A stretch of 38,316 bases of DNA from positions 1-38,316 of the forward strand of contig DYEF01000073.1 of assembly GCA_020725805.1 (NCBI GenBank), in the 5' to 3' direction. Origin of the DNA: Bdellovibrio sp. GTDB taxonomy: Bacteria; Myxococcota; SpSt-1050. This document shows, in pieces, positions 19,834-38,296 of the stretch. The translations under genes and the position numbers were made by a program. Numbering within the stretch: position 1 is the stretch's first letter; each line of letters begins with the position of its first letter. Below the pieces are notes generated by a model. It was not told the DNA's origin and searched no databases. It saw only the letters and a program-made list of their open reading frames with translations.

Positions 19834-21702
19834 ATGAGAATTTTAATAACTACTTTAAGTATTCTTCTTCTCCACTTTCTTTATGCCTGTGGCTCTACTA
19901 CCCTTCTCGACGAACCGGACATTATTCTGAACAGCAATGATACTTCGGTTTCTGATTCGGGTACTAATGATATATCTTCAGATGTTCAGGAGGATGCATC
20001 TCTGCCTGATACAGGGTATGACACTGGAAGTCCTGAAAAATGCGATAATAAAGAGGCGTGCAATTATTTGCTGAAAGAAGATAAATTGTGTGAAGGGAGC
20101 TGTATCTTTCAGGAGCACAGCCTGAGTTGCGACGGTAATGTCTTTAACAATCTATGCTATCAGATCGAACCACCTCAGGAGCCTGTTCAGCCGAAAGTGG
20201 TTGACGGCATCAAAATAACTCCGCCGTTAATCCCCATGTATATAACCGAAGGAGACAGACTTGAAATTACACTTATTCTGACCAACTCCGAAGAGAAGAA
20301 GAAAGAACTCTCATATTCATACAAAAATCCCGACAACTGGGAGATATTTCCGGAGAATTTCAGCCAGTCAGGGACGCTCAGTTTCGATGCATTAGAGGCA
20401 AAGACGCTCAGATTCAATGCAAATGCACTCAGGTCAAATATGTTCAACACCTATTACAGCCCGGTTATTACATTCTACTTCAATGACGTCGTTTACGAAA
20501 TCTATATCTGGATTAAATTTCCCGGGAATGAAGGATATATAAGGTGCAACGATTTGTTCTACCCTCCCAGTTACTGTCTGAATCAGAACTGTTCGGGATA
20601 TGCATACTACAATACAGCGGTCTGCTGCGAAAACATATTCTATCCCGGCTCCTCCTGCTGCTCCGACAGTGACTGTACAAAAAGCGTCTGCATAGACGGC
20701 AAATGTGTATATCAGGTCCCGGGCATATTTCTTGCCAATTCAACACTCATTCAGAACAACCGTATACTTGTAATTCTTTCGGATTACGATGGATTCGAAG
20801 AGAAAGACCTGTGTAAAGACAAATCTCAGGACCCCAAATATAACATAAGTACCAAAGAAATCGAAGAGTATTATTCTACCATCATCTATAACAGGACGAA
20901 GAGACAAAATGTAATCAATTTCAAATGGGAAATACTTGCAGGATTCAGAGCCGAGAGATTCATTACGGACAACAGATACGATTTTCAGTCCTATAAAGAC
21001 GGACTTCAGAAATATCTCAACGACCTCGGATGCGGGATAAATTTCGAGGATTATGACAAGCTCATTATTATCTCTCCGCGCCTCGACCTTATGGGATTCG
21101 GAGGAATGGCATTCGGCAACGGCTATATAGGACAGGTCACCTATGCTAATTATTATATAACCATTCACGAACTTGCACATTCTTTCGGAGCAAGTGACTT
21201 ATACCTCGATCTCGGCGGAAACTTCCAGTACCTAAAATCTATTATGGCAGCTAATCTCGGGGGCTTCGATTTCCCCGAAGATAAAGTTACATGGGGAGAG
21301 ATTGGTCTCGGAGATATAGATAAAAACGGTGTCATCGACCTCTTCGAATTTGCAAAATTCCCCGAAAAGATCGTCATCAGGAATATAAAGGCAAATCTGA
21401 CATATAAAGACAGTGTCGAAATCTCGTTTGAGCCGATGCTTCTGGAAAACAATAAACTGAAAAAGGGGATATTCTACTCATATTACATCGAACTCCCCGA
21501 ATATAATGCGGCTATGGATTTATATGGCACACCCTATATAGCATTCGATCAGTATTCGGTCGACCTGAACAAAATAAGGGAGACGAAGAAGCTCAAGATA
21601 AGAATCAAGACCCAATACAGATACTCTGATGCTGAATTCAGAAGCAGACTTCTGACCTTCGACAAGACATACGAAATAGACGTAGGAGAGATAAAAGAAT
21701 AG
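19834..21702 (+). CDS. Putative secreted lipoprotein zinc metalloprotease with EF-hand loop
   Basis: This 622-residue exported protein starts with a signal peptide ending in a lipobox-like LYAC (Cys19), then a Ser/Asp-rich linker (about 30-65), a Cys-rich segment (70-110), a beta-rich domain (about 123-230), and a second Cys module around 238-291 containing CCSDSDCTKSVC. The catalytic region has H445-E-L-A-H449 followed by G452 and D455 (HExxHxxGxxD), resembling M6/metzincin-type proteases, with SIMAANLGG downstream as a possible Met-turn. Residues 494-505, DIDKNGVIDLFE, fit the canonical 12-residue EF-hand calcium loop. It is divergent from mraZ and convergent with the next gene (8 bases apart). 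Protease activity and substrate are inferred. Confidence 0.75.
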   Translation: MRILITTLSILLLHFLYACGSTTLLDEPDIILNSNDTSVSDSGTNDISSDVQEDASLPDTGYDTGSPEKCDNKEACNYLLKEDKLCEGSCIFQEHSLSCDGNVFNNLCYQIEPPQEPVQPKVVDGIKITPPLIPMYITEGDRLEITLILTNSEEKKKELSYSYKNPDNWEIFPENFSQSGTLSFDALEAKTLRFNANALRSNMFNTYYSPVITFYFNDVVYEIYIWIKFPGNEGYIRCNDLFYPPSYCLNQNCSGYAYYNTAVCCENIFYPGSSCCSDSDCTKSVCIDGKCVYQVPGIFLANSTLIQNNRILVILSDYDGFEEKDLCKDKSQDPKYNISTKEIEEYYSTIIYNRTKRQNVINFKWEILAGFRAERFITDNRYDFQSYKDGLQKYLNDLGCGINFEDYDKLIIISPRLDLMGFGGMAFGNGYIGQVTYANYYITIHELAHSFGASDLYLDLGGNFQYLKSIMAANLGGFDFPEDKVTWGEIGLGDIDKNGVIDLFEFAKFPEKIVIRNIKANLTYKDSVEISFEPMLLENNKLKKGIFYSYYIELPEYNAAMDLYGTPYIAFDQYSVDLNKIRETKKLKIRIKTQYRYSDAEFRSRLLTFDKTYEIDVGEIKE

Positions 21703-21710
21703 CCGTTCTG

Positions 21711-24479
21711 CTACAATCCGTTGCTTATCCTGATCGTATAGGAATCACACTGATAGGGTGCATTCGGATTTCTGTAAACCTTTATGAAATATACTTTGGA
21801 ATTGTCATTGCAGCAGTTGGTCGTAAAGTTATTGGTTACACAGGTGGTCGTGCAGGGATTTTCACCCTCATAAGGACCGCCCGGCACTACATCCGACCTG
21901 AAATTAGTCCTCCACTGGAAAACCGTGTCATTTATACACTTTACATTTGCATTGTTGCAGTCATTCTCCCTTATCTCGAGCAAATATGCATTGTCCGGAT
22001 TATTCAGAAAGCTCACAGTAAAGTTGAAATTATCTCCGCCGTTGTTTCTGTCAGCATTGATATCATCCCGCGCTACAACCCTGTACCAGTCTTCGTCATT
22101 CTGAGGAATAATCTTTGCAGTTATATCGAGGTATGTCTGCGCACTGTCGATAAATTCGCTCTGTATGGCAAGTGCCCCGGCACAGGTATTCCCCACACCC
22201 TGAATGTCATTGGAGTCTGCCTGACACTCACATCCGTTGGAATAGATCTGGTCAACATCGTAATACCCGAAGTTACAGGAAGTAATCCTGCACCCGCCCT
22301 GATAACACTCGGTCGTCGCATTTTGCGGCGGGGGACATAACACATTGATATTTCCTTCATCAGTAAGGCCGTTGCAGTCATTATCCTTCCCGTCACAAAT
22401 CTCCTTCGGGTCAGCAGTTTTCACGCAGTTGTATTCGCAGCCGTTAGAGTTATCCGGTGCATTCAGGTCACCGTTGAGGTCATAGTAATCCGCAAGACAG
22501 GAGTAAAGGCAACCGGTTCCGCAGGTACAGATGCCGCTCGTATTATTTCTTGCAGGGCAGCACGTCTTACCTGAGCCCGACAGCGGGATTACTACATTGA
22601 AATTGGACTTTCTGTCGCTGTTCTTAATCGAAATTGCACCTGTTCTCTGCGTCGGCTGGCCATTCTGCTGTGAACCGACGGATGGCACAAAGGCAACATT
22701 TATAGCTACCTTCTGGGCAGAATCCAGTATAATGGGCATATTTGGGATATTGGAAAGAACAAAATCCGAACTGGAACCGATTGTCAGTTCGATTGAAGAG
22801 ATAATAAGCTGTCCGAACCCCGCATTGGAAATATTTATCGTCCTGATATCAGATGAGCAATTCTGTGATGTATCATAAAGAACAACTCCGAAATCCAGAC
22901 TCGAATTATCCACACTAATCGTCGGGTCAATCGCACTGGCGGTCACAGGAACGAATACATTGTCATTACCAATCGAATCATTCGACCTGATATTGATTTT
23001 GGTTGAAACCGTCTCTATTGATTTCGGAGCATACTTTACAGTAAACGTAGTTGAACCCCCCGGAGTAATATTTATCGGAGTCTGAACCGGCTGATTATTT
23101 ACAAGGAGAGTAAGCGATGTCCCCGGGTTTTCGATAAGTGCATCGGTAATGACAAGATTTACCTTTCCGTCATTCTTTGCAACAATCTGTTCGGTCTTTT
23201 CGTCATTTACCTGAACGGTGCCAAAATCCACCACCTGCTTATCAAGTGTAAGTTTCGGACCCTGATAATTACACTGTGCCTTTATCAGTATAGTCGTCGA
23301 ACCGTCGTCAGGTGTAGAATTATTGCCAACCGTATCAATATCAGGGTCATTTGTATTGAATGTTATCACCGAAGCCTCATCAAATTTGTCCTCATTGCAT
23401 TTGAACGTTATTTCGATGAAATATACCTCTGACGGATTGTCATAGATTGGAGTATTAACAGCGTTCTGGGTATCGATATTGTTATAGATCTTCATATCGA
23501 AAGTATTGTTCGAGGCGCTCGTTTTGGTGAGGTATAGTTTTGATATTTCCAGAATCGCCTCACTTGCAACATTAGTAAAATATATTCTCTTCTTTACAGA
23601 CTTACCGGACTCTGCGTTTCCCAAATCCACTGTATACTGATACGGGTTGGTAGTAGGTGGCCACAACCTTTTATTAAAATCCTTTTCATCCACTATTGCA
23701 AAATCAGGGCTGTCTTTATATGACGATACAATAGGCAGTTTGAACTGAGGCTTATTCTCATCATTTGAAATAATCAATATGTTCCCCTTGTCGGGAGTTG
23801 CATCGTCCTGACAGTACTGTACCTCGATATCTATCGATGAACCTGCTGCAATATTGCCGGGTATCTGAATCGGGATATTGAGTGTAAATCTCGGGGTCTG
23901 CGGCGGTTCCGGGTTGGTTCCGGATTCAAAATCAATCATCGTAATCCTGAGATCGGCACTTCCGACATTCTGAATCTTGAATGTCCTCTTCGAGCACTGA
24001 CCAAAGAATACCGCACCGAAATTGATGACCTGAGGGTCGACGAAAAGAACAGGACGGTTCTTTTCGACACACTGGTGGGTATTGAGGTCACATATCTTAC
24101 TGGCATCCTTACAATCCTTGTCTTCATCACAATAAAAGGAGACATCCGTCAAAACAACATCTGTACCGGCATCTTCAGTAATAACATCGGTTACCTTCAC
24201 ACACTTTCCGTTTATACATTCAGTATCGGGCTCCATGCAGTCCAGATTGTTCTTACAGACCTCTCCCCCGTCAGGCCTTGACGGCACGCATATCTTCTTA
24301 ACAGGGTCACACTCATAACCGCTCTTGCACTGGGCACTGTTTGAACACTTCTGAATACCCACATCCGGCTGGGTACCCGTATCGTTTTCAGACGGTGTAG
24401 TATTATCACTGCACATTACCAGCAGAACAAATACGGAAATCACAACAATCACATACAACATTGTCCTGATAAAATTCAT
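21711..24479 (-). CDS. Exported ASH/SPD-2-like multidomain protein with MopE motif
   Basis: This protein is 922 residues from the ATG at 24479, chosen because AAGGAG precedes it; the frame is open to 24518. It has a hydrophobic N-terminus ending LLVMC (Cys23, a non-ideal lipobox), then three C-x-C Cys modules (about 45-64, 75-93, 117-137). Several immunoglobulin-like beta domains of the ASH/SPD-2 type follow, each opening with a pattern such as VDPQVINFGAVFFG or LDKQVVDFGTVQV. A Cys-rich region with the MopE-type DGKDNDCNGLTDEG (about 693-707) comes next, and then a C-terminal domain of PPC-like character with ENPCTTTC. No catalytic motif is seen. It starts 40 bases after its larger paralogue and shares its C-terminal domain. 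Confidence 0.8.
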   Translation of the reverse strand: MNFIRTMLYVIVVISVFVLLVMCSDNTTPSENDTGTQPDVGIQKCSNSAQCKSGYECDPVKKICVPSRPDGGEVCKNNLDCMEPDTECINGKCVKVTDVITEDAGTDVVLTDVSFYCDEDKDCKDASKICDLNTHQCVEKNRPVLFVDPQVINFGAVFFGQCSKRTFKIQNVGSADLRITMIDFESGTNPEPPQTPRFTLNIPIQIPGNIAAGSSIDIEVQYCQDDATPDKGNILIISNDENKPQFKLPIVSSYKDSPDFAIVDEKDFNKRLWPPTTNPYQYTVDLGNAESGKSVKKRIYFTNVASEAILEISKLYLTKTSASNNTFDMKIYNNIDTQNAVNTPIYDNPSEVYFIEITFKCNEDKFDEASVITFNTNDPDIDTVGNNSTPDDGSTTILIKAQCNYQGPKLTLDKQVVDFGTVQVNDEKTEQIVAKNDGKVNLVITDALIENPGTSLTLLVNNQPVQTPINITPGGSTTFTVKYAPKSIETVSTKINIRSNDSIGNDNVFVPVTASAIDPTISVDNSSLDFGVVLYDTSQNCSSDIRTINISNAGFGQLIISSIELTIGSSSDFVLSNIPNMPIILDSAQKVAINVAFVPSVGSQQNGQPTQRTGAISIKNSDRKSNFNVVIPLSGSGKTCCPARNNTSGICTCGTGCLYSCLADYYDLNGDLNAPDNSNGCEYNCVKTADPKEICDGKDNDCNGLTDEGNINVLCPPPQNATTECYQGGCRITSCNFGYYDVDQIYSNGCECQADSNDIQGVGNTCAGALAIQSEFIDSAQTYLDITAKIIPQNDEDWYRVVARDDINADRNNGGDNFNFTVSFLNNPDNAYLLEIRENDCNNANVKCINDTVFQWRTNFRSDVVPGGPYEGENPCTTTCVTNNFTTNCCNDNSKVYFIKVYRNPNAPYQCDSYTIRISNGL

Positions 24480-24519
24480 ATCCTTACTCCTTAGGACTAT
24501 TTTACATTCTTTTGACAAC

Positions 24520-27500
24520 CTACGAACCGTTTGTAATCTTCAGAGTATAAGTGCTGCAGGTTGTGGCGGCCCCGGCCCTTCTGTAAACCTTAATGTAGTA
24601 TGTAGCGGTGTAACTGTGGCAGCAGTTGCTTATAAAATCACTGCTTGTACAGCTTGCGGTACAGGGATTCTCTCCCTCGTTCTTACCGTTCCCGTCAACA
24701 TCTCCCCTGAAGTTCATATTATATTCGTACTTTACATCATCAGAACAAACTTTATTGTTGTTATCCACGACATTCCTGTAGACCTCAATCTGAAATTCAC
24801 AGGAGGCAGGAACAGACGGATTACAACCCACAATTTCGACTATAAAATGGAAATTATTGTAACCTGCAGTGGCCACATCCTGTGCAACGACCTTATACCA
24901 GTCCGCATCTCCGGTCGGGACAATGTTCTTGCCGGTCACTTCCACATATTGCTTCAGCGAATCCTGAAGTGTCCCGAGGTCGATAGCCGTTGCGGAGGTA
25001 TTTCCTAAATTGTTTCTGTCGTTGTCATCCTGCCTGCATTCACAACCGTCCGAATATATCCCGTTGACATTATAGTAGGTCGCATTGCATCCCGTAATTA
25101 CACAAGCCGAACTCTGGCAGGCAACCGAAGATGCCTGAGGCGGTATTGTACAGATGTTGCCGCAACCGTTACAGTTGCTTACGTCATTTGTTATATTTGT
25201 CTCACAGCCATCCGCATATCCGTTCTTGCAATCCATGTATCCGGTATTGCAGGAGGCAATTCCACAGGTGCTGTTCTCACACTTTGCCGTCCCGTTTGCA
25301 ACTGTACAATTCGTGGTACAACTTCCGCAAGCATTGATATTGTTGCTCGTATCCGTCTCACAGCCATCGGAGGGATTGGTATTGCAGTCCCTGAATGTCC
25401 CGAGGCAATAGTCAATTGCGCAGACTTTGTTCACACACTTTGCCTGAGCATTGTTGAGCTGACAGATATAATTACAGTAGCCACAGTTATTAACACTTGT
25501 TGCAATATTTGTCTCACAACCTGTATCTGCCTTACCATCGCAGTCCCTGTAATCCCCTATACAGCTGTCTATTGCACACTGACCTGCAACACACTTCGGA
25601 TTTGCATTATTGAGACTGCATACATAGTAACAATCACCGCAGTTATTGACATCTCCTGCGACATATATTTCACAGCCGGTCGAATAGACTCCGTCACAGT
25701 CCTTGAATCCGCTGTCGCACTTGTCAATAACACAAAAACCATTGACGCACTTCGAGGTTGCATTCGGGGCAGAACACTTCTTGTTGCACCCGCCGCAGTT
25801 ATTGACATCCGTATTGGTATTTGTCTCACAACCATCTGCATATCCGTTCTTGCAGTCTTTATACGGAGTGTTGCACCTGTCTATCTCACACACCCCATTA
25901 TTGCATTTCGGTACTCCATTAAGCACAGAACATATTGTAGAACAATTTCCACAGTGGTTTACATCGCTCTGAGTTGATGTCTCACACCCGGTGCTATATA
26001 ACTTATCACAGTCTCCGTAAAACTGGTCGCAGGATGCTATCTCACAGCTCCCGTTCGAACATTTTGGTGTTCCGTTTGCCACTACGCATTCATTTTTGCA
26101 AACCCCGCAATGATTGGTTGATGTATTGATATTTGTCTCACACCTGTCACTCATATCGTTGTTACAATCAGAAAATCCGTTAGGACAGGCAAATCCTATA
26201 CCAGCGACATTAATATACTTTACCTGATTATCCTTATCGCTCGATTTTATCTCAATGGCACCTTTTATCTGATTCGGGTCAGATGATACTGAAGGCATAA
26301 ACTTTACTCCAAACTGTAAAGTCTCCTGTCCGTCGCCCTTCAGAAACACAGGGAACTGCTGCGGGAGATTGACAAGAATAAAGTCACTGCTCGAACCAAC
26401 GCTCAGGGCTATAGAATTGACAGAGAGCGTTCCCTTCCCGCTGTTATAGATAGTCATACTAACAACGGCAGACTCCTTGCCGAGTTCGATCACCCCAAAA
26501 TTGATATCAGTATCAGGATTTATTACTAAGTTCGGGTCGGTCCCGCTTGCATAAAGTCTGACCTCAATGAGCGGATTATTCGGGTCATTGGATTTTATCA
26601 CGATCTTATTGAACTGGTCGCCCTGAGATTTAGGAGCAAATTTGACCTTGACTTCGACACAGGCTCCTCCCTGCAATGTCCCTCCTAATTTGGACGGAGA
26701 GATTGTATAGTCAGTATTCGGGTTGTCAAAACCGGATGTCCCGTCTATTACAAGGGCATCCTCACCGGTATTGCAGATATTGAAAATATCCTCACTGGAC
26801 AATCCTACCTGAACCTCGCCGAAATTGATTTCTGTCCTGTCGACATTAATCCCGGGCGGCACATATCCCGCCTGCCCAACAATATTGATTGTCAGCTCCC
26901 CGCTGTCATCAATATAATCATTGTTAATATCTGAATCATTTGTGGCAATGACCATACGCGTATGTTCGCTGGCTTCCTTCTCCTGCGGCACATATCTGAT
27001 ATAAAGGTCGACCATCTCTCCGGCACTGATATAAAACGGGGCCGTGTATTTGGTATTGGGGTCAAGAGGTGAACGCATCTCTATTTCTATTTTATTTCTG
27101 CTCATCTGGGTAATATTCGCACTTTTGATTGCGATAATTCCGTCCTCCGACTGATTCAGGAAAGTAACCATCATCTCTTTTGTATTCCCTACAGGAATAT
27201 TTCCAAGGTCGATTCCGTAGGAGTTAGTAGCGCCTGACTGCGGATACAATAATTTTGGCGGATTTGTGCTTCTGTCCACAATAACGAGATCGGGCGGTTT
27301 CTTGTATTTGCTGCTCAAAAAGACCTTGATACTCGGGTTTGTGATATCTGAACTGTTTATCACAAGAAAGCCGTTGTCAGGCTGGGCATCATCCTGTTTA
27401 TAGGTTACATCTACATTCAGGGTATCATTCGGCTGAAGAACAGCAGGAATATTCTTTTCGGTTGTCCTTGTAAATCTCGGATGTTCAGGGTCGGGGTTTG

Positions 27501-28035
27501 TATTACTCTCGAAGTCGACCATATAGATTGTCAGCGGACCATTCCCTATATTGGTTATAACAAGCGTCTTCTTAATTGCCTGTCCAAACTGGACACTGCC
27601 GAAGTCGAGCTTCTCCGGGTCTACCTTTATTCTCCCGCCGTATACACAGGAATGTGTCTCGAGATTACATACAAAGCCATCCGGACACTCGGAATTGTAA
27701 TTGCACTTAATAGATTCAACCGGAGTTATATCGACACCCGTCTCTTCACCGCCTGCATCAACTGATTTCTTCTGACATACAGAATTGACGCACTCCTCAT
27801 CGGGACTACAATCTGTGGAATTACGGCAGGTTGTAATGGTCCCGCCATCCTTCTTTACGCAGATATTATTTACACAGCTCTCGTCCTTATCACACTGTGC
27901 GGAATTCTTACAGGGCTTTTGTGTCCCTCCGCTGTCTTCGAGGAAAGAAGAGACATCGCCGCTGCACTGGGGAAACATAATTGCAGCGGACACAGCAATA
28001 CCCAATACAAATATTATCAGAGTCTTTTTAATCAT
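24520..28035 (-). CDS. Exported ASH/SPD-2-like protein with seven Cys-rich repeats
   Basis: This 1171-residue exported protein is the paralogue of its downstream neighbour. A signal peptide (about 1-24, ending MFPQC, not a clean lipobox) leads into three Cys modules (42-59, 70-87, 111-130). About four ASH/SPD-2-like beta domains follow, opening with VDPEKLDFGSVQFG, VDRTEINFGEVQVG and INPDTDINFGVIELG among others. Then come seven 52-residue repeats with eight cysteines each (about 614-983), and a C-terminal domain with ENPCTASC ending in TLKITNGS. The ATG has an AGGAGGG ribosome site and a strong promoter upstream. The fold suggests a cell-surface structural or adhesive role; no enzyme motif was found. 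Confidence 0.8.
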   Translation of the reverse strand: MIKKTLIIFVLGIAVSAAIMFPQCSGDVSSFLEDSGGTQKPCKNSAQCDKDESCVNNICVKKDGGTITTCRNSTDCSPDEECVNSVCQKKSVDAGGEETGVDITPVESIKCNYNSECPDGFVCNLETHSCVYGGRIKVDPEKLDFGSVQFGQAIKKTLVITNIGNGPLTIYMVDFESNTNPDPEHPRFTRTTEKNIPAVLQPNDTLNVDVTYKQDDAQPDNGFLVINSSDITNPSIKVFLSSKYKKPPDLVIVDRSTNPPKLLYPQSGATNSYGIDLGNIPVGNTKEMMVTFLNQSEDGIIAIKSANITQMSRNKIEIEMRSPLDPNTKYTAPFYISAGEMVDLYIRYVPQEKEASEHTRMVIATNDSDINNDYIDDSGELTINIVGQAGYVPPGINVDRTEINFGEVQVGLSSEDIFNICNTGEDALVIDGTSGFDNPNTDYTISPSKLGGTLQGGACVEVKVKFAPKSQGDQFNKIVIKSNDPNNPLIEVRLYASGTDPNLVINPDTDINFGVIELGKESAVVSMTIYNSGKGTLSVNSIALSVGSSSDFILVNLPQQFPVFLKGDGQETLQFGVKFMPSVSSDPNQIKGAIEIKSSDKDNQVKYINVAGIGFACPNGFSDCNNDMSDRCETNINTSTNHCGVCKNECVVANGTPKCSNGSCEIASCDQFYGDCDKLYSTGCETSTQSDVNHCGNCSTICSVLNGVPKCNNGVCEIDRCNTPYKDCKNGYADGCETNTNTDVNNCGGCNKKCSAPNATSKCVNGFCVIDKCDSGFKDCDGVYSTGCEIYVAGDVNNCGDCYYVCSLNNANPKCVAGQCAIDSCIGDYRDCDGKADTGCETNIATSVNNCGYCNYICQLNNAQAKCVNKVCAIDYCLGTFRDCNTNPSDGCETDTSNNINACGSCTTNCTVANGTAKCENSTCGIASCNTGYMDCKNGYADGCETNITNDVSNCNGCGNICTIPPQASSVACQSSACVITGCNATYYNVNGIYSDGCECRQDDNDRNNLGNTSATAIDLGTLQDSLKQYVEVTGKNIVPTGDADWYKVVAQDVATAGYNNFHFIVEIVGCNPSVPASCEFQIEVYRNVVDNNNKVCSDDVKYEYNMNFRGDVDGNGKNEGENPCTASCTSSDFISNCCHSYTATYYIKVYRRAGAATTCSTYTLKITNGS
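25087..26195 (-). repeat. Seven in-frame 52-residue (156-base) Cys-rich repeats
   Basis: Seven tandem units encode a pattern like xxxDCxxGxxDGCETNxxxDVNNCGxC, then xxxC, xxxxAxxKC, xxxxC and xIxxC, with eight cysteines per unit. An eighth incomplete unit ends in GIYSDGCEC. The units are diverged at the DNA level, so this is an old protein-level duplication rather than a fresh tandem repeat. Similar CETN/NCG.C repeats are common in secreted proteins of myxobacteria and relatives. Confidence 0.85.
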
Positions 28036-34406: not shown

Positions 34407-34470
34407 CCACCTTTACCAGTTTTATCAGTTGTAGTATAACCCTGTCTCTTCTATAAAGTATTGTCCAATA
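34407..34470 (-). pseudogene. Decayed Rhs core fragment next to phoU
   Basis: Read on the minus strand from 34466, codons give GQYFIEETGLYYN followed at once by a TGA (34427-34425). This is the same peptide that begins the core piece of the three intact Rhs fragments to the right. Beyond the stop, similarity resumes as ACTGGTAAAGGTGG, matching the core CTGGTGGAGGTGG. No open frame or start remains. It is a remnant of a fourth copy and marks the left edge of the Rhs array. Confidence 0.8.
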
Positions 34471-34490: not shown

Positions 34491-35543
34491 TTACCTAATA
34501 ACTGTACCAGCATTTATATCCTTTTTAATTCCATCTAAAATAATTTTATCTTCTATACTCATTAGCTCTTTCTTGCAAAAATATGAATGTGTTAAAATAT
34601 TAAATAAATCATTTAACAAATAAGATCCTATCCCTTCATTATAACTATCTGTCTGGAAAAATGCCAATATCTCTTTAATCTGTGGGTCATATAAATACAA
34701 CTTCACAGAAGGACATACATTTCTTTCAATATTCTTAATATAATATAAGCTTTCGTTCTCTATATCCCTGTGAGAAAAAATAAACTCTAGTTTACTATCA
34801 ATAATATTCTTAATCCTATTGTCCATATAGCATTTATGTTTTATTCCTTTGTTAAGATCAAATATTTCATAACATAGATCAAAGAAATTAATCCTTAATA
34901 TTTCTATTTCCGGCGATAGAGTATCTTCAACCTCTTTTATTAAATATAATCCATTAAAATCATACAAAGTATTAATACATTCATTTTGATGCATTTCATT
35001 ATTAATATGAGAACCAATTTCCTCCTTTATAAAAAATAATTCAGGAATATTCATAAAATAATTAAGTTTTTCATAATACATAAGATTCGCTAATTCTTTA
35101 TCATTCTCAAAATCTCTACAATACTCATATTCCCATATATTATTAATTATCAACAATGGATAGGAATTCACATATTTATTTAGGTTTGAGATGCTGTCCA
35201 TACAGGCACATATAGACTTTGAGTCAAAGACAACAACACTTTTTGTAAGACATAAATCAATACCATATACATATCTCTCAGCCTCCTTAATACAGGAGTT
35301 TTTATCGATAAAATCACTCTTACTTAACATTTCTTCTAGCCAAAGACTACCTTCCTTGTCTATCTCACATAAAATAGTCTTATCATTCGAATATCTCTTA
35401 TAGTAATATTGATTCTTAGAACCTATACAAAATTCATAAACATAATATTGATGTCCTACTTCATCTAGAACATAGAAGCAAGATGTTTCCCCTATATTAA
35501 CCTGAGCAAATAATGCTATTAAGAAAATTGAATTCATATACAT
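34491..35543 (-). CDS. Uncharacterised protein, candidate immunity to the metalloprotease tip
   Basis: I do not recognise this 350-residue protein. It has a hydrophobic N-terminus (MNSIFLIALFAQVNIG) that looks like a short export signal or membrane anchor. A long acidic, Asn/Tyr/Ile-rich sequence with scattered cysteines follows, with no obvious catalytic motif. It begins 11 bases after the stop of the HEIAH tip gene, in the position where Rhs immunity genes occur; ATG codons lie at 35543 and 35537. Its base composition is strongly AT-rich, unlike phoU next to it. The immunity role is inferred only from position and predicted location. Confidence 0.5.
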   Translation of the reverse strand: MYMNSIFLIALFAQVNIGETSCFYVLDEVGHQYYVYEFCIGSKNQYYYKRYSNDKTILCEIDKEGSLWLEEMLSKSDFIDKNSCIKEAERYVYGIDLCLTKSVVVFDSKSICACMDSISNLNKYVNSYPLLIINNIWEYEYCRDFENDKELANLMYYEKLNYFMNIPELFFIKEEIGSHINNEMHQNECINTLYDFNGLYLIKEVEDTLSPEIEILRINFFDLCYEIFDLNKGIKHKCYMDNRIKNIIDSKLEFIFSHRDIENESLYYIKNIERNVCPSVKLYLYDPQIKEILAFFQTDSYNEGIGSYLLNDLFNILTHSYFCKKELMSIEDKIILDGIKKDINAGTVIR

Positions 35544-35554
35544 CTACCTGGATT

Positions 35555-36097
35555 CTATCTGGATCTACAACAATAAGGTATATGCTCATCTGCCCACCTA
35601 TCAGCATCAGAATCACTTGAAATATTTAATACGGCATGAGCAATTTCGTGAAGTACAGTATAACAAGTATATTTACAATTCCCTCTTTCGTTATTAGTTA
35701 TTACTATACTATATGAACCAACTTCTGTATAACCACAACATTTACCTTCCCCTGAAGGACAACCAACACCTATTGAGTCACATTTCCAATATATAGTCTT
35801 AGCATAATTAGAGGTATTATCATCTCCATATAAATAAATACACAACAAGCAGTGATTTACATTCTTACATCTTAACCCTTTGGGATCAATATTATATATA
35901 GGGTTACCATGTACGTAGCTGCAACAATTAGGATATATAAGCTTTAAATCAAAATCCTCATTAAGAAGAATTTTATCAAATTCCACATACCTCCCCACCT
36001 CCCTCTCATACCACCTCCACCAGTTGTAGTATAACCCTGTCTCTTCTATGTAATATTGTCCAGGGAAGCGGAAATTATTTATTGTTCTCTCGACCAT
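35555..36097 (-). CDS. Orphan Rhs tip: short core piece plus HEIAH zinc-protease-like toxin
   Basis: This 180-residue frame starts inside the Rhs core (VERTINNFRFPGQYYIEET, residues 2-20) and keeps the GLYYNWWRWYEREVGRY core strand. The core ends with YVHGNPIYNIDPKG (61-74). The following unique tip (75-180) has eleven-plus cysteines and H150-E-I-A-H154, with acidic residues downstream in SDADRWADEH (162-172) as possible third zinc ligands. This is the arrangement of a zincin-type peptidase toxin. It lacks the Rhs body, signal and transport domains, so it is a displaced C-terminal module. It is followed at once by a candidate immunity gene. Confidence 0.72.
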   Translation of the reverse strand: MVERTINNFRFPGQYYIEETGLYYNWWRWYEREVGRYVEFDKILLNEDFDLKLIYPNCCSYVHGNPIYNIDPKGLRCKNVNHCLLCIYLYGDDNTSNYAKTIYWKCDSIGVGCPSGEGKCCGYTEVGSYSIVITNNERGNCKYTCYTVLHEIAHAVLNISSDSDADRWADEHIPYCCRSR

Positions 36098-36127
36098 TAG
36101 AACAAGTTTCTAACTGACACTGAGTGT

Positions 36128-36517
36128 TTAACTCTTACCTTCTTTATTTTTGAAAAAGAAATATACACTCTTAGTAACAACTAATAAAACCAAGAAGAGA
36201 ATTATACATGATAATAGTATTATAAATTTAAGTGATACCTCACCATTTAAGTAATTGAAAAACATACTTATTATTAGGAAAAAAAAGAAAATTAAAGAAT
36301 TTATTAAAAGTATTGAAATAATAGCATAATTTTTTAATGGTAAAAACCCCCATATAATTCCTACACTAAACATAAATACATGGAAACTTATTAGCAACTT
36401 AAAGTCAAACTTAAATATGAAATTAAGAATAATTATTATTGAGGATGTAATAATAAAAGATATTATCAGTACAATACCTCTTATTTGTATTTCTTTTCTT
36501 ACCTCATCGTTTATCAT
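36128..36517 (-). CDS. Four-helix membrane protein, candidate immunity to the second Cys-rich tip
   Basis: This 129-residue protein consists almost wholly of four hydrophobic helices with short polar links, beginning MINDEVRKEIQIRG. The ATG at 36517 has GGAGGA seven bases before it and is preferred over one at 36532. It starts 30 bases after the tip gene at 36548-37003 and before the next orphan tip. I recognise no family. A polytopic partner placed directly after a toxin module fits immunity against a membrane-acting toxin; this is inference. Confidence 0.5.
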   Translation of the reverse strand: MINDEVRKEIQIRGIVLIISFIITSSIIIILNFIFKFDFKLLISFHVFMFSVGIIWGFLPLKNYAIISILLINSLIFFFFLIISMFFNYLNGEVSLKFIILLSCIILFLVLLVVTKSVYFFFKNKEGKS

Positions 36518-36547
36518 ACAATATTCCTCCATCTCAATAAATACTGA

Positions 36548-37003
36548 TTAACATCTATCTTTCATACAATAGCAATATTCATTAAAACAAGCAATAATAG
36601 CGACTATTTCGGGGATACCAAAGATTATATCACACGCTATTACACAGCAAGGTGGATTTGGTGACAACATACATCCCATAATACATATATCCCACGCATC
36701 AGCAATTGCCAACCCGAGTTCTAAAAGGCAGTCTCTAAGTTTGGCACTATCACATTTAATTAATCCTGTTTTATCATAAAAAATCAGTGGATTATTACTA
36801 ACATATTCATAAAGACTAAAATTGTCTCCTTTATTATTTCTTATTCTTTCTACTTGAATATATTGTGAGGTATTCCAATTATACCACCTCCACCAGTTGT
36901 AATATAGTCCTGTCTCTTCTATGAAATATTGTCCGGGAGATCTAAAATTATTCTTTGTCCTCTCAACCAATATACTTCTCACTCTATTGTTTAAAATATA
37001 CAA
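36548..37003 (-). CDS. Orphan Rhs tip: short core piece plus Cys-rich toxin candidate
   Basis: This 151-residue frame carries a core remnant (ILVERTKNNFRSPGQYFIEE at 11-30, then GLYYNWWRWY) and the end of the core as FSLYEYVSNNPLIFYDKTG (62-80). A 70-residue tip with 11 cysteines (84-151) follows, including hydrophobic runs CLLELGLAIADAW and IIFGIPEIVAIIACF. The tip is not a family I know; the alternation of hydrophobic segments and Cys pairs suggests a disulfide-bonded, membrane-active peptide. The core's usual DPIG motif is degenerate here (QVERIR). It starts 19 bases after the previous candidate immunity gene. Confidence 0.65.
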   Translation of the reverse strand: MYILNNRVRSILVERTKNNFRSPGQYFIEETGLYYNWWRWYNWNTSQYIQVERIRNNKGDNFSLYEYVSNNPLIFYDKTGLIKCDSAKLRDCLLELGLAIADAWDICIMGCMLSPNPPCCVIACDIIFGIPEIVAIIACFNEYCYCMKDRC

Positions 37004-37022
37004 AGTTGATAAATCTCAATAT

Positions 37023-37562
37023 CTATTCTTCTCTTTCATTACCCAATGTTCTAATATATTTCCTATATATGTATTCTTCTCTAAATATGATACCAAATAC
37101 AAAAAATAAATATGAAAGTGGTAATATAAAATACATATATCCTAATCCTGATTTTAAATAAGCTACTATCCAAGAACATATTCCATACGTCCCGGATAAA
37201 AGAAATAATACCATAAATATTTTTATAATCAGAGTTTTTAGGTTATCATTCTTTTTATAATCACTGTTTTTTCCACTCATTTTATCTCCTCTCACTTTAC
37301 CTGTTATCTTATTTATTACTAAATTTGAAAGCACAAAAATACTAATGCATATATGTACTAATGAATCTCTTTGATCAATATAATAAGGCCAGTGGTAAAT
37401 CACAATATTGCATATATTACTAACTTCACATATATTATTAATGTTTCCATTTTTTTCATATTTTTCATAAAAAAGTACAAAATTAACTTGCGGTGCAAAT
37501 AATATTATTAAAAAACACATTATTAAAAAAACGTCATAAATTGTTATTTTTATTCTTTTCAT
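37023..37562 (-). CDS. Four-helix membrane protein, candidate immunity to the first Cys-rich tip
   Basis: This 179-residue polytopic protein has four predicted helices (about 7-25, 70-86, 112-135, 140-160) and a charged C-terminus. The start is the ATG at 37562, whose bases overlap the stop codon of the Rhs tip gene (ATGA), so translation is coupled; the frame's longer ATG at 37619 lies inside that gene. No family is recognised. Tight coupling to the toxin-tip gene and membrane topology suggest immunity to a membrane-targeting toxin, by inference. Confidence 0.55.
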   Translation of the reverse strand: MKRIKITIYDVFLIMCFLIILFAPQVNFVLFYEKYEKNGNINNICEVSNICNIVIYHWPYYIDQRDSLVHICISIFVLSNLVINKITGKVRGDKMSGKNSDYKKNDNLKTLIIKIFMVLFLLSGTYGICSWIVAYLKSGLGYMYFILPLSYLFFVFGIIFREEYIYRKYIRTLGNEREE

Positions 37563-38296
37563 GCGGCTACTACTACTGGTGCAAATTCTAAGAGAAGACA
37601 ACCTATACATATAGCACAACTTACCTTAAAACCTAAATCGACTAAATCAGGAAGGGGATTCCCCATACATAAAGACATACATTTCAAATAATCTTCATTG
37701 GATTTAACTCTACATTTATCTTTGCATTTCTCAGAACAATTATACTTTTTTATCTTATCCTTTAGTTCTTTCTCGCCTAAGCATAATGCACAAGCAAGTA
37801 AGCATCCGGGAGAAGGAACTGGTATTTGGCCGTTAAAGTCTATATACCTGACTGAGTTATTATAGGAATAATGATATGAACTAAGTAAATTAAAACTCAT
37901 ATTTATATGGCTATATTTTGATAATGGTAATACTTGTGAAACCAAATCAGTTTCATAATACCTTCCCACATCACTCTCATACCACCTCCACCAGTTGTAG
38001 TATAAGCCTGTCTCTTCTATATAATATTGTCCCGGGAAGCGGAAGTTATTTGTTGTTCTCTCAACCAAAATATTCACCTTCCCAAACGGTTCATAATCTC
38101 CATACCACGCAATTTGTCCATTCTCATCAGTTAATACCTGCGGTGTCCCGAGATGGTCATCGTGATAAAATCTTTTTCCTTCCATTTTCAAATAAATATT
38201 ACCACCAAACTTATCCCCAGTAAAGAGTATTGTACTATTGGTGCTACTATTGGTGCCAGTTACAAATCTGGCACGCAAATTGATGTAGTAAACCAT
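37559..38296 (-). CDS. Truncated Rhs protein: core end plus Cys-rich C-terminal tip
   Basis: This 245-residue frame contains the conserved end of an Rhs/YD-repeat shell: GKRFYHDDHLGTPQVLTDEN (40-59), DYEPFG (67-72), FRFPGQYYIEETGLYYNWWR (85-104) and a degenerate core end YHYSYNNSVRYIDFNG. A unique tip (157-245) with 11 cysteines follows, containing CLLACALC and FKVSCAICIGCLLLEF. A TAA at 38309-38311 closes the frame just upstream of the ATG, and no ribosome site is seen, so the Rhs N-terminal part is missing, frameshifted or in another gene outside the window. It is the first of three tip genes in the array. Confidence 0.7.
   Translation of the reverse strand: MVYYINLRARFVTGTNSSTNSTILFTGDKFGGNIYLKMEGKRFYHDDHLGTPQVLTDENGQIAWYGDYEPFGKVNILVERTTNNFRFPGQYYIEETGLYYNWWRWYESDVGRYYETDLVSQVLPLSKYSHINMSFNLLSSYHYSYNNSVRYIDFNGQIPVPSPGCLLACALCLGEKELKDKIKKYNCSEKCKDKCRVKSNEDYLKCMSLCMGNPLPDLVDLGFKVSCAICIGCLLLEFAPVVVAA

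Follow-up and report, generated by a model that had tools for sequence, protein, structure and literature searches.

Many Rhs tips are without known activity. Two of them, each rich in cysteine and followed by a gene for a small membrane protein, lie at one end of a 38,316-nucleotide contig from Bdellovibrio sp. They raise the question of whether such tips form a new class of membrane-disrupting toxin. We analyzed this stretch as a whole (hereafter the window); it is a complete contig, and its terminal Rhs DNA recurs at several other contig ends. The minus strand of the window carries three Rhs core ends in tandem, each with a tip and then a small partner gene. All three tips stand directly behind an Rhs-associated core (TIGR03696), with E-values of 7.8e-15, 4e-14 and 1e-15 for the first, second and third ORF in a profile search. 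A 122-base core repeat, present at 35975-36096, 36848-36969 and 37946-38067 (minus strand, spanning 35975..38067; 72-89% identity to the reference copy), marks the shared module starts. The array closes with a broken Rhs core remnant of repeat family D2 (34407..34466, minus strand), which is 78-80% identical to the three cores and has a broken frame. G+C content is 29% in the array versus 45% in the other parts of the window. Variable tips with an adjacent small gene behind a conserved core are the arrangement of Rhs polymorphic toxin tips, and three modules plus a broken remnant, with core fragments and a second tip that lacks an ATG, are the arrangement of orphan modules. It has been reported that orphan cdiA-CT/cdiI and rhs-CT modules are tandem displaced tip/immunity modules with core remnants and without start signals (PMC3150448). 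The array has the same tandem layout, core remnants and missing start signals, and differs in its tip families and in being known from sequence; it is a set of displaced ("orphan") Rhs tip/partner cassettes at a contig end, matching the CDI/Rhs orphan-module layout.

The first Rhs ORF (37559..38296, minus strand) comprises a truncated core, also matched by PF03527 (E 1.9e-15), and tip 1. The contig ends 20 bases upstream of the ATG of this ORF, the same ATG is closely preceded by an in-frame stop, and any remainder of the Rhs gene would lie beyond the contig. Tip 1 (37562-37831, minus strand) corresponds to residues 156-245 of the ORF (90 aa; GRAVY 0.33), and the start of its 179-aa partner, imm1 (37026..37562, minus strand), overlaps the tip stop codon (ATGA). 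The second Rhs ORF (36548..37003, minus strand) is a core fragment, with no in-frame ATG before the core, that ends in tip 2 (36551-36766, minus strand; the last 72 aa; GRAVY 0.88). Partner 2, imm2 (36128..36532, coding 36131-36532, minus strand), follows close behind tip 2 and has 134 aa from its first ATG or 129 aa from its second, which GGAGG precedes. A simple hydropathy scan found four hydrophobic segments in each partner, in agreement with the original prediction of a four-helix membrane protein behind each tip, and both partners are putative polytopic immunity proteins. The region singled out in that prediction, 36548-38296, does contain both tips, but the partner of tip 2 (36128-36532) falls outside it, and a third tip/partner pair (35555-36097 and 34491-35543) lies beyond the pairs it described.

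This third Rhs module (35555..36097, minus strand) consists of a core fragment and a 107-aa tip, tip 3, with 11 cysteines and an HEIAH (HExxH) motif; its 350-aa partner (34491..35543, minus strand) has an N-terminal hydrophobic segment resembling a signal peptide. Tip 3 shares 44% identity with a tip from contig C44 (L012, 1-603, plus strand) that is likewise Cys-rich with an HExxH motif, and the partners of both tips begin with a signal-like segment. Tips of this type gave weak matches to PHROGs whose function is not known; tip 3 and the C44 tip are probably periplasmic metalloprotease tips.

A recount confirmed 11 cysteines in each of the first two tips (in 90 aa for tip 1 and 72 aa for tip 2). 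The CxxC, CC and CxC arrangements that had been ascribed to both are divided between them, so that neither has all three: tip 1 contains three CxxC and four Cx3C spacings and no CC or CxC, and tip 2 contains CC, CxC and two Cx3C spacings and no CxxC. The chance of at least 11 cysteines was 2e-6 for tip 1 and 2e-7 for tip 2 against the protein background of the window, which is raised by exported proteins with many cysteines and by one ORF read in the wrong frame, and 2e-4 and 3e-5, respectively, for random codons of the local base composition.

As a control, we compared 14 Rhs tips from the window's genome and a sister species, a small sample with boundaries and partner classes assigned by hand from ORF lists, in which two homologous pairs and one fragment mean that the tips are not all independent. 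Twelve of these were Cys-rich (5.6-15% Cys), among them the two homologous HExxH tips and hydrophilic tips with soluble partners, versus only 2 of 78 closed tips sampled elsewhere in the phylum that reached 5% Cys (pooled Cys 0.68%). Cysteine content did not separate the partner types across the 14 tips (p 0.57), whereas polytopic partners accompanied hydrophobic tips (Mann-Whitney p 0.0003), and we rejected Cys-richness as a mark of membrane toxins. Most non-polytopic partners start with a signal-peptide-like hydrophobic segment, the exception being the partner behind the second tip on contig C103 of the sister species (G001). Three exported proteins encoded in the window have many cysteines too (7.0% at 24520-28035, 4.6% at 21711-24518 and 3.1% at 19834-21702), versus less than 1.5% for most of its cell-wall and division genes. 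Since cysteines are common to genus tips of any partner type and to exported proteins, their abundance most plausibly reflects disulfide bonding in extracytoplasmic proteins. The cysteine signature is a trait of the whole Rhs arsenal of the genus and does not single out a new class of toxin, and the best reading of tips 1 and 2 is that of disulfide-stabilised extracytoplasmic tips. This genus-level pattern is informative: together with partners that are mostly polytopic or signal-like and a T6SS sheath that was not found, it suggests that the arsenal works outside the cytoplasm.

Two of the three large exported proteins at 19834-28035 carry HYDIN/DUF1573-like Ig domains. At the end of another contig of the same genome (C15; L073, 1874-2383) we found a Cys-rich tip fragment with 10 cysteines in 92 aa; the gene behind it encodes a protein with two hydrophobic segments, and a core remnant comes next. 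A Cys-rich Rhs tip and a polytopic partner occur together elsewhere in the phylum too, in genome G076 (L095, G076:C58:12551-17300), where a hydrophilic tip with 9 cysteines in 104 aa, unrelated to tips 1 and 2, precedes a polytopic partner. Downstream of it are a second Cys-rich stretch, with an apparently broken frame, and then a further protein, whose hydrophobic segments number about five. Because the G076 tip is hydrophilic and yet has a polytopic partner, the association of hydrophobicity with partner type is not a general rule.

Homology searches agreed with the original claim that neither tip matches a known toxin family: profile searches of Pfam, NCBIfam and PHROGs, as well as PDB sequences, yielded no meaningful match for tip 1 or tip 2. 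A short-pattern scan found no relative of either tip in contigs of about 85,000 species. A single relative of tip 1 was detected, on contig C64 of its own genome (36% identity over the alignment, nine cysteines aligned, E 1.8e-9), in an open frame of 331 codons that runs to the contig end; 194 other genomes of the phylum contained none. The gene after this C64 tip encodes a membrane protein resembling partner 1 (z 3.1, with 4 of 500 shuffles reaching the score); among nine other partner pairs compared, only two C65 partners scored alike. That the relative of the tip also precedes a related membrane protein supports tip 1 and partner 1 as a cognate pair. For tip 2 there was no credible relative in the 194 other phylum genomes, genome contigs, viral contigs or plasmids, so that our view of conservation rests on one relative for tip 1 and none for tip 2. 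A 29-residue match to tip 2 in the phylum (E 0.002), in whose surroundings we saw no Rhs core, and a match to Penaeidin-4d (E 0.1) were both judged to be chance.

We also asked whether the two tips are related to each other. A BLASTP match between them (E 0.004) lay on a Cys-driven stretch, its score was reached by 19 of 1000 Cys-fixed shuffles, and the C64 relative of tip 1 showed nothing against tip 2 (450 of 1000 shuffles); the two tips are not clearly homologous. Partners 1 and 2 showed no similarity. As tips 1 and 2 are not demonstrably related, they are two separate orphan families rather than one class, and the suggestion of a new class of polymorphic toxin tip is not supported, given the dissimilar partners and the generality of cysteines in the genus. 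We regard it as doubtful, though conceivable, that convergence has produced a class of small, helical Rhs tips that contain disulfide bonds, disrupt membranes and are countered by four-helix immunity proteins in the membrane, and that these two are its first members; most of the Rhs arsenal of the genus would then be rich in disulfides and act outside the cytoplasm.

AlphaFold2 modelled each tip as three helices at low confidence (mean pLDDT 63.6 for tip 1 from two sequences, and 68.6 for tip 2 from a single sequence), and Foldseek searches of the PDB with these models gave no match below E 1. Matches to ATP synthase c subunits covered short helical hairpins, had E-values of 3 or higher and were set aside. 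A known nuclease or deaminase fold did not turn up; the models, whose weakness precludes naming any fold, argue with low confidence against a recognisable one in either tip.

Small, hydrophobic, probably helical tips with polytopic partners are also seen in Tse5/Tsi5 and CdiA-CT(EC93)/CdiI, and this likeness points to action at the inner membrane. The orphan Rhs tips 1 and 2 probably act on membranes, each with a membrane protein as its probable immunity. In the fuller proposal, which we consider to have about an even chance of being right, each orphan cassette would consist of a conserved Rhs core end, an interchangeable tip and a partner gene. The tips, short, hydrophobic and probably all-helical domains, would fold outside the cytoplasm with disulfides and enter a rival's inner membrane, disturbing its barrier or potential, and the adjacent polytopic protein would neutralise the tip within the membrane of the producer itself. 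We infer toxicity, disulfides, insertion, immunity and delivery for both tips. The original idea of a membrane toxin with membrane immunity is favored by the hydrophobic tips, the coupled polytopic partners, the helical low-confidence models with no recognisable enzyme fold, and the second tip 1-type pair. Its bacteriocin-like step, from cysteines to membrane disruption, is not supported, since the Cys-rich genus tips occur with whatever partner and include those with HExxH.

Three known systems resemble this proposal in part. Tse5 is a T6SS-delivered Rhs effector of Pseudomonas aeruginosa whose tip makes membrane pores, and its immunity protein Tsi5 is an integral membrane protein with two predicted TM regions (PMC9637101). 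The cassettes share with it an Rhs C-terminal tip without predicted enzyme activity and a putative integral-membrane immunity protein, the membrane activity here being predicted; they differ in having four hydrophobic segments per partner, Cys-rich tips and no VipB sheath gene found. CdiA-CT(EC93) is a helical ionophore with a hydrophobic, membrane-localised immunity protein, CdiI, in highly polymorphic pairs, and two-domain tips of that kind join an entry domain to a five-helix ionophore domain (PMC11630599). A small helical tip, a hydrophobic partner and polymorphic pairs are common to both, but the tips described here are single domains of 72-90 aa on Rhs, with 11 cysteines and three helices in weak models; we found no five-helix domain behind an entry domain and did not assign them to the CDI ionophore family. 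Tox-WTIP is a short pore-forming tip, found also on RHS proteins, with RxxR and Wx[ST]IP motifs in two membrane-spanning helices (PMC3482391). It is likewise a short tip on RHS proteins predicted to act in membranes, but both motifs are absent from tips 1 and 2, as read by eye.

The evidence also bears on other readings. Tips 1 and 2 could be periplasmic enzymes or binding domains directed at envelope proteins, lipids or peptidoglycan, with cysteines serving stability only and the polytopic partner shielding a membrane-bound target or acting as an anchor. Most genus tips do look extracytoplasmic rather than membrane-like, tip 3 and the C44 tip have HExxH motifs, and the G076 tip with its polytopic partner is hydrophilic; tips 1 and 2, however, are hydrophobic, very short and without a recognisable catalytic motif or enzyme fold, which leaves this reading unlikely. 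Still less probable is that the cysteine clusters bind metal (zinc or Fe-S) in small metal-binding domains. The evidence on cysteines consists of counts and spacing, and the CxxCxxC at the C-terminal end of tip 1 is retained in its C64 relative, but Cys-rich exported proteins and genus tips fit disulfides and no metal-binding family was matched by either tip, so we consider this very improbable.

Alternatively, the displaced tips may be decayed or silent remnants, with selection now acting on the partner as orphan immunity. E. coli EC93 makes an orphan immunity protein and apparently not the orphan CdiA-CT (PMC3150448). Tip 2 has no ATG start, the array is closed by a broken core, and further copies are also broken. 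Against this, frames are intact in all three tips of the window and nine cysteines align between tip 1 and its relative at 36% identity, and we judge the remnant reading quite unlikely. It is compatible with membrane action, as it concerns current use and not mechanism, and tip 2 may be silent until recombination with a complete Rhs gene. Tips 1 and 2 are small, testable membrane-toxin candidates.

As to delivery, the T6SS sheath protein VipB/TssC was not found in the window's genome or in the sister genome by a search that detected an E. coli control, and the tips were not classed as T6SS-delivered, Tse5-like Rhs effectors. Profiles of the YD-repeat shell (TIGR01643, PF25023) had no match in these two genomes, whose assembly breaks within Rhs repeats, and neither a complete Rhs carrier for the tips nor a route for their export was found in these fragmented assemblies. 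A short contig of the sister species (C32; L037, 379-2256) encodes a 626-aa protein that combines YD-like repeats with an Rhs core; an apparent hydrophobic stretch interrupts the repeats, and nothing in the window's genome matched this protein over its full length. Contig C65 of the window's genome (L025, 2923-5197) carries glycine-rich, Cys-poor Rhs tips behind a different core, and their hydrophobic partners resemble each other (z 3.4); these tips are possibly another membrane-acting type.
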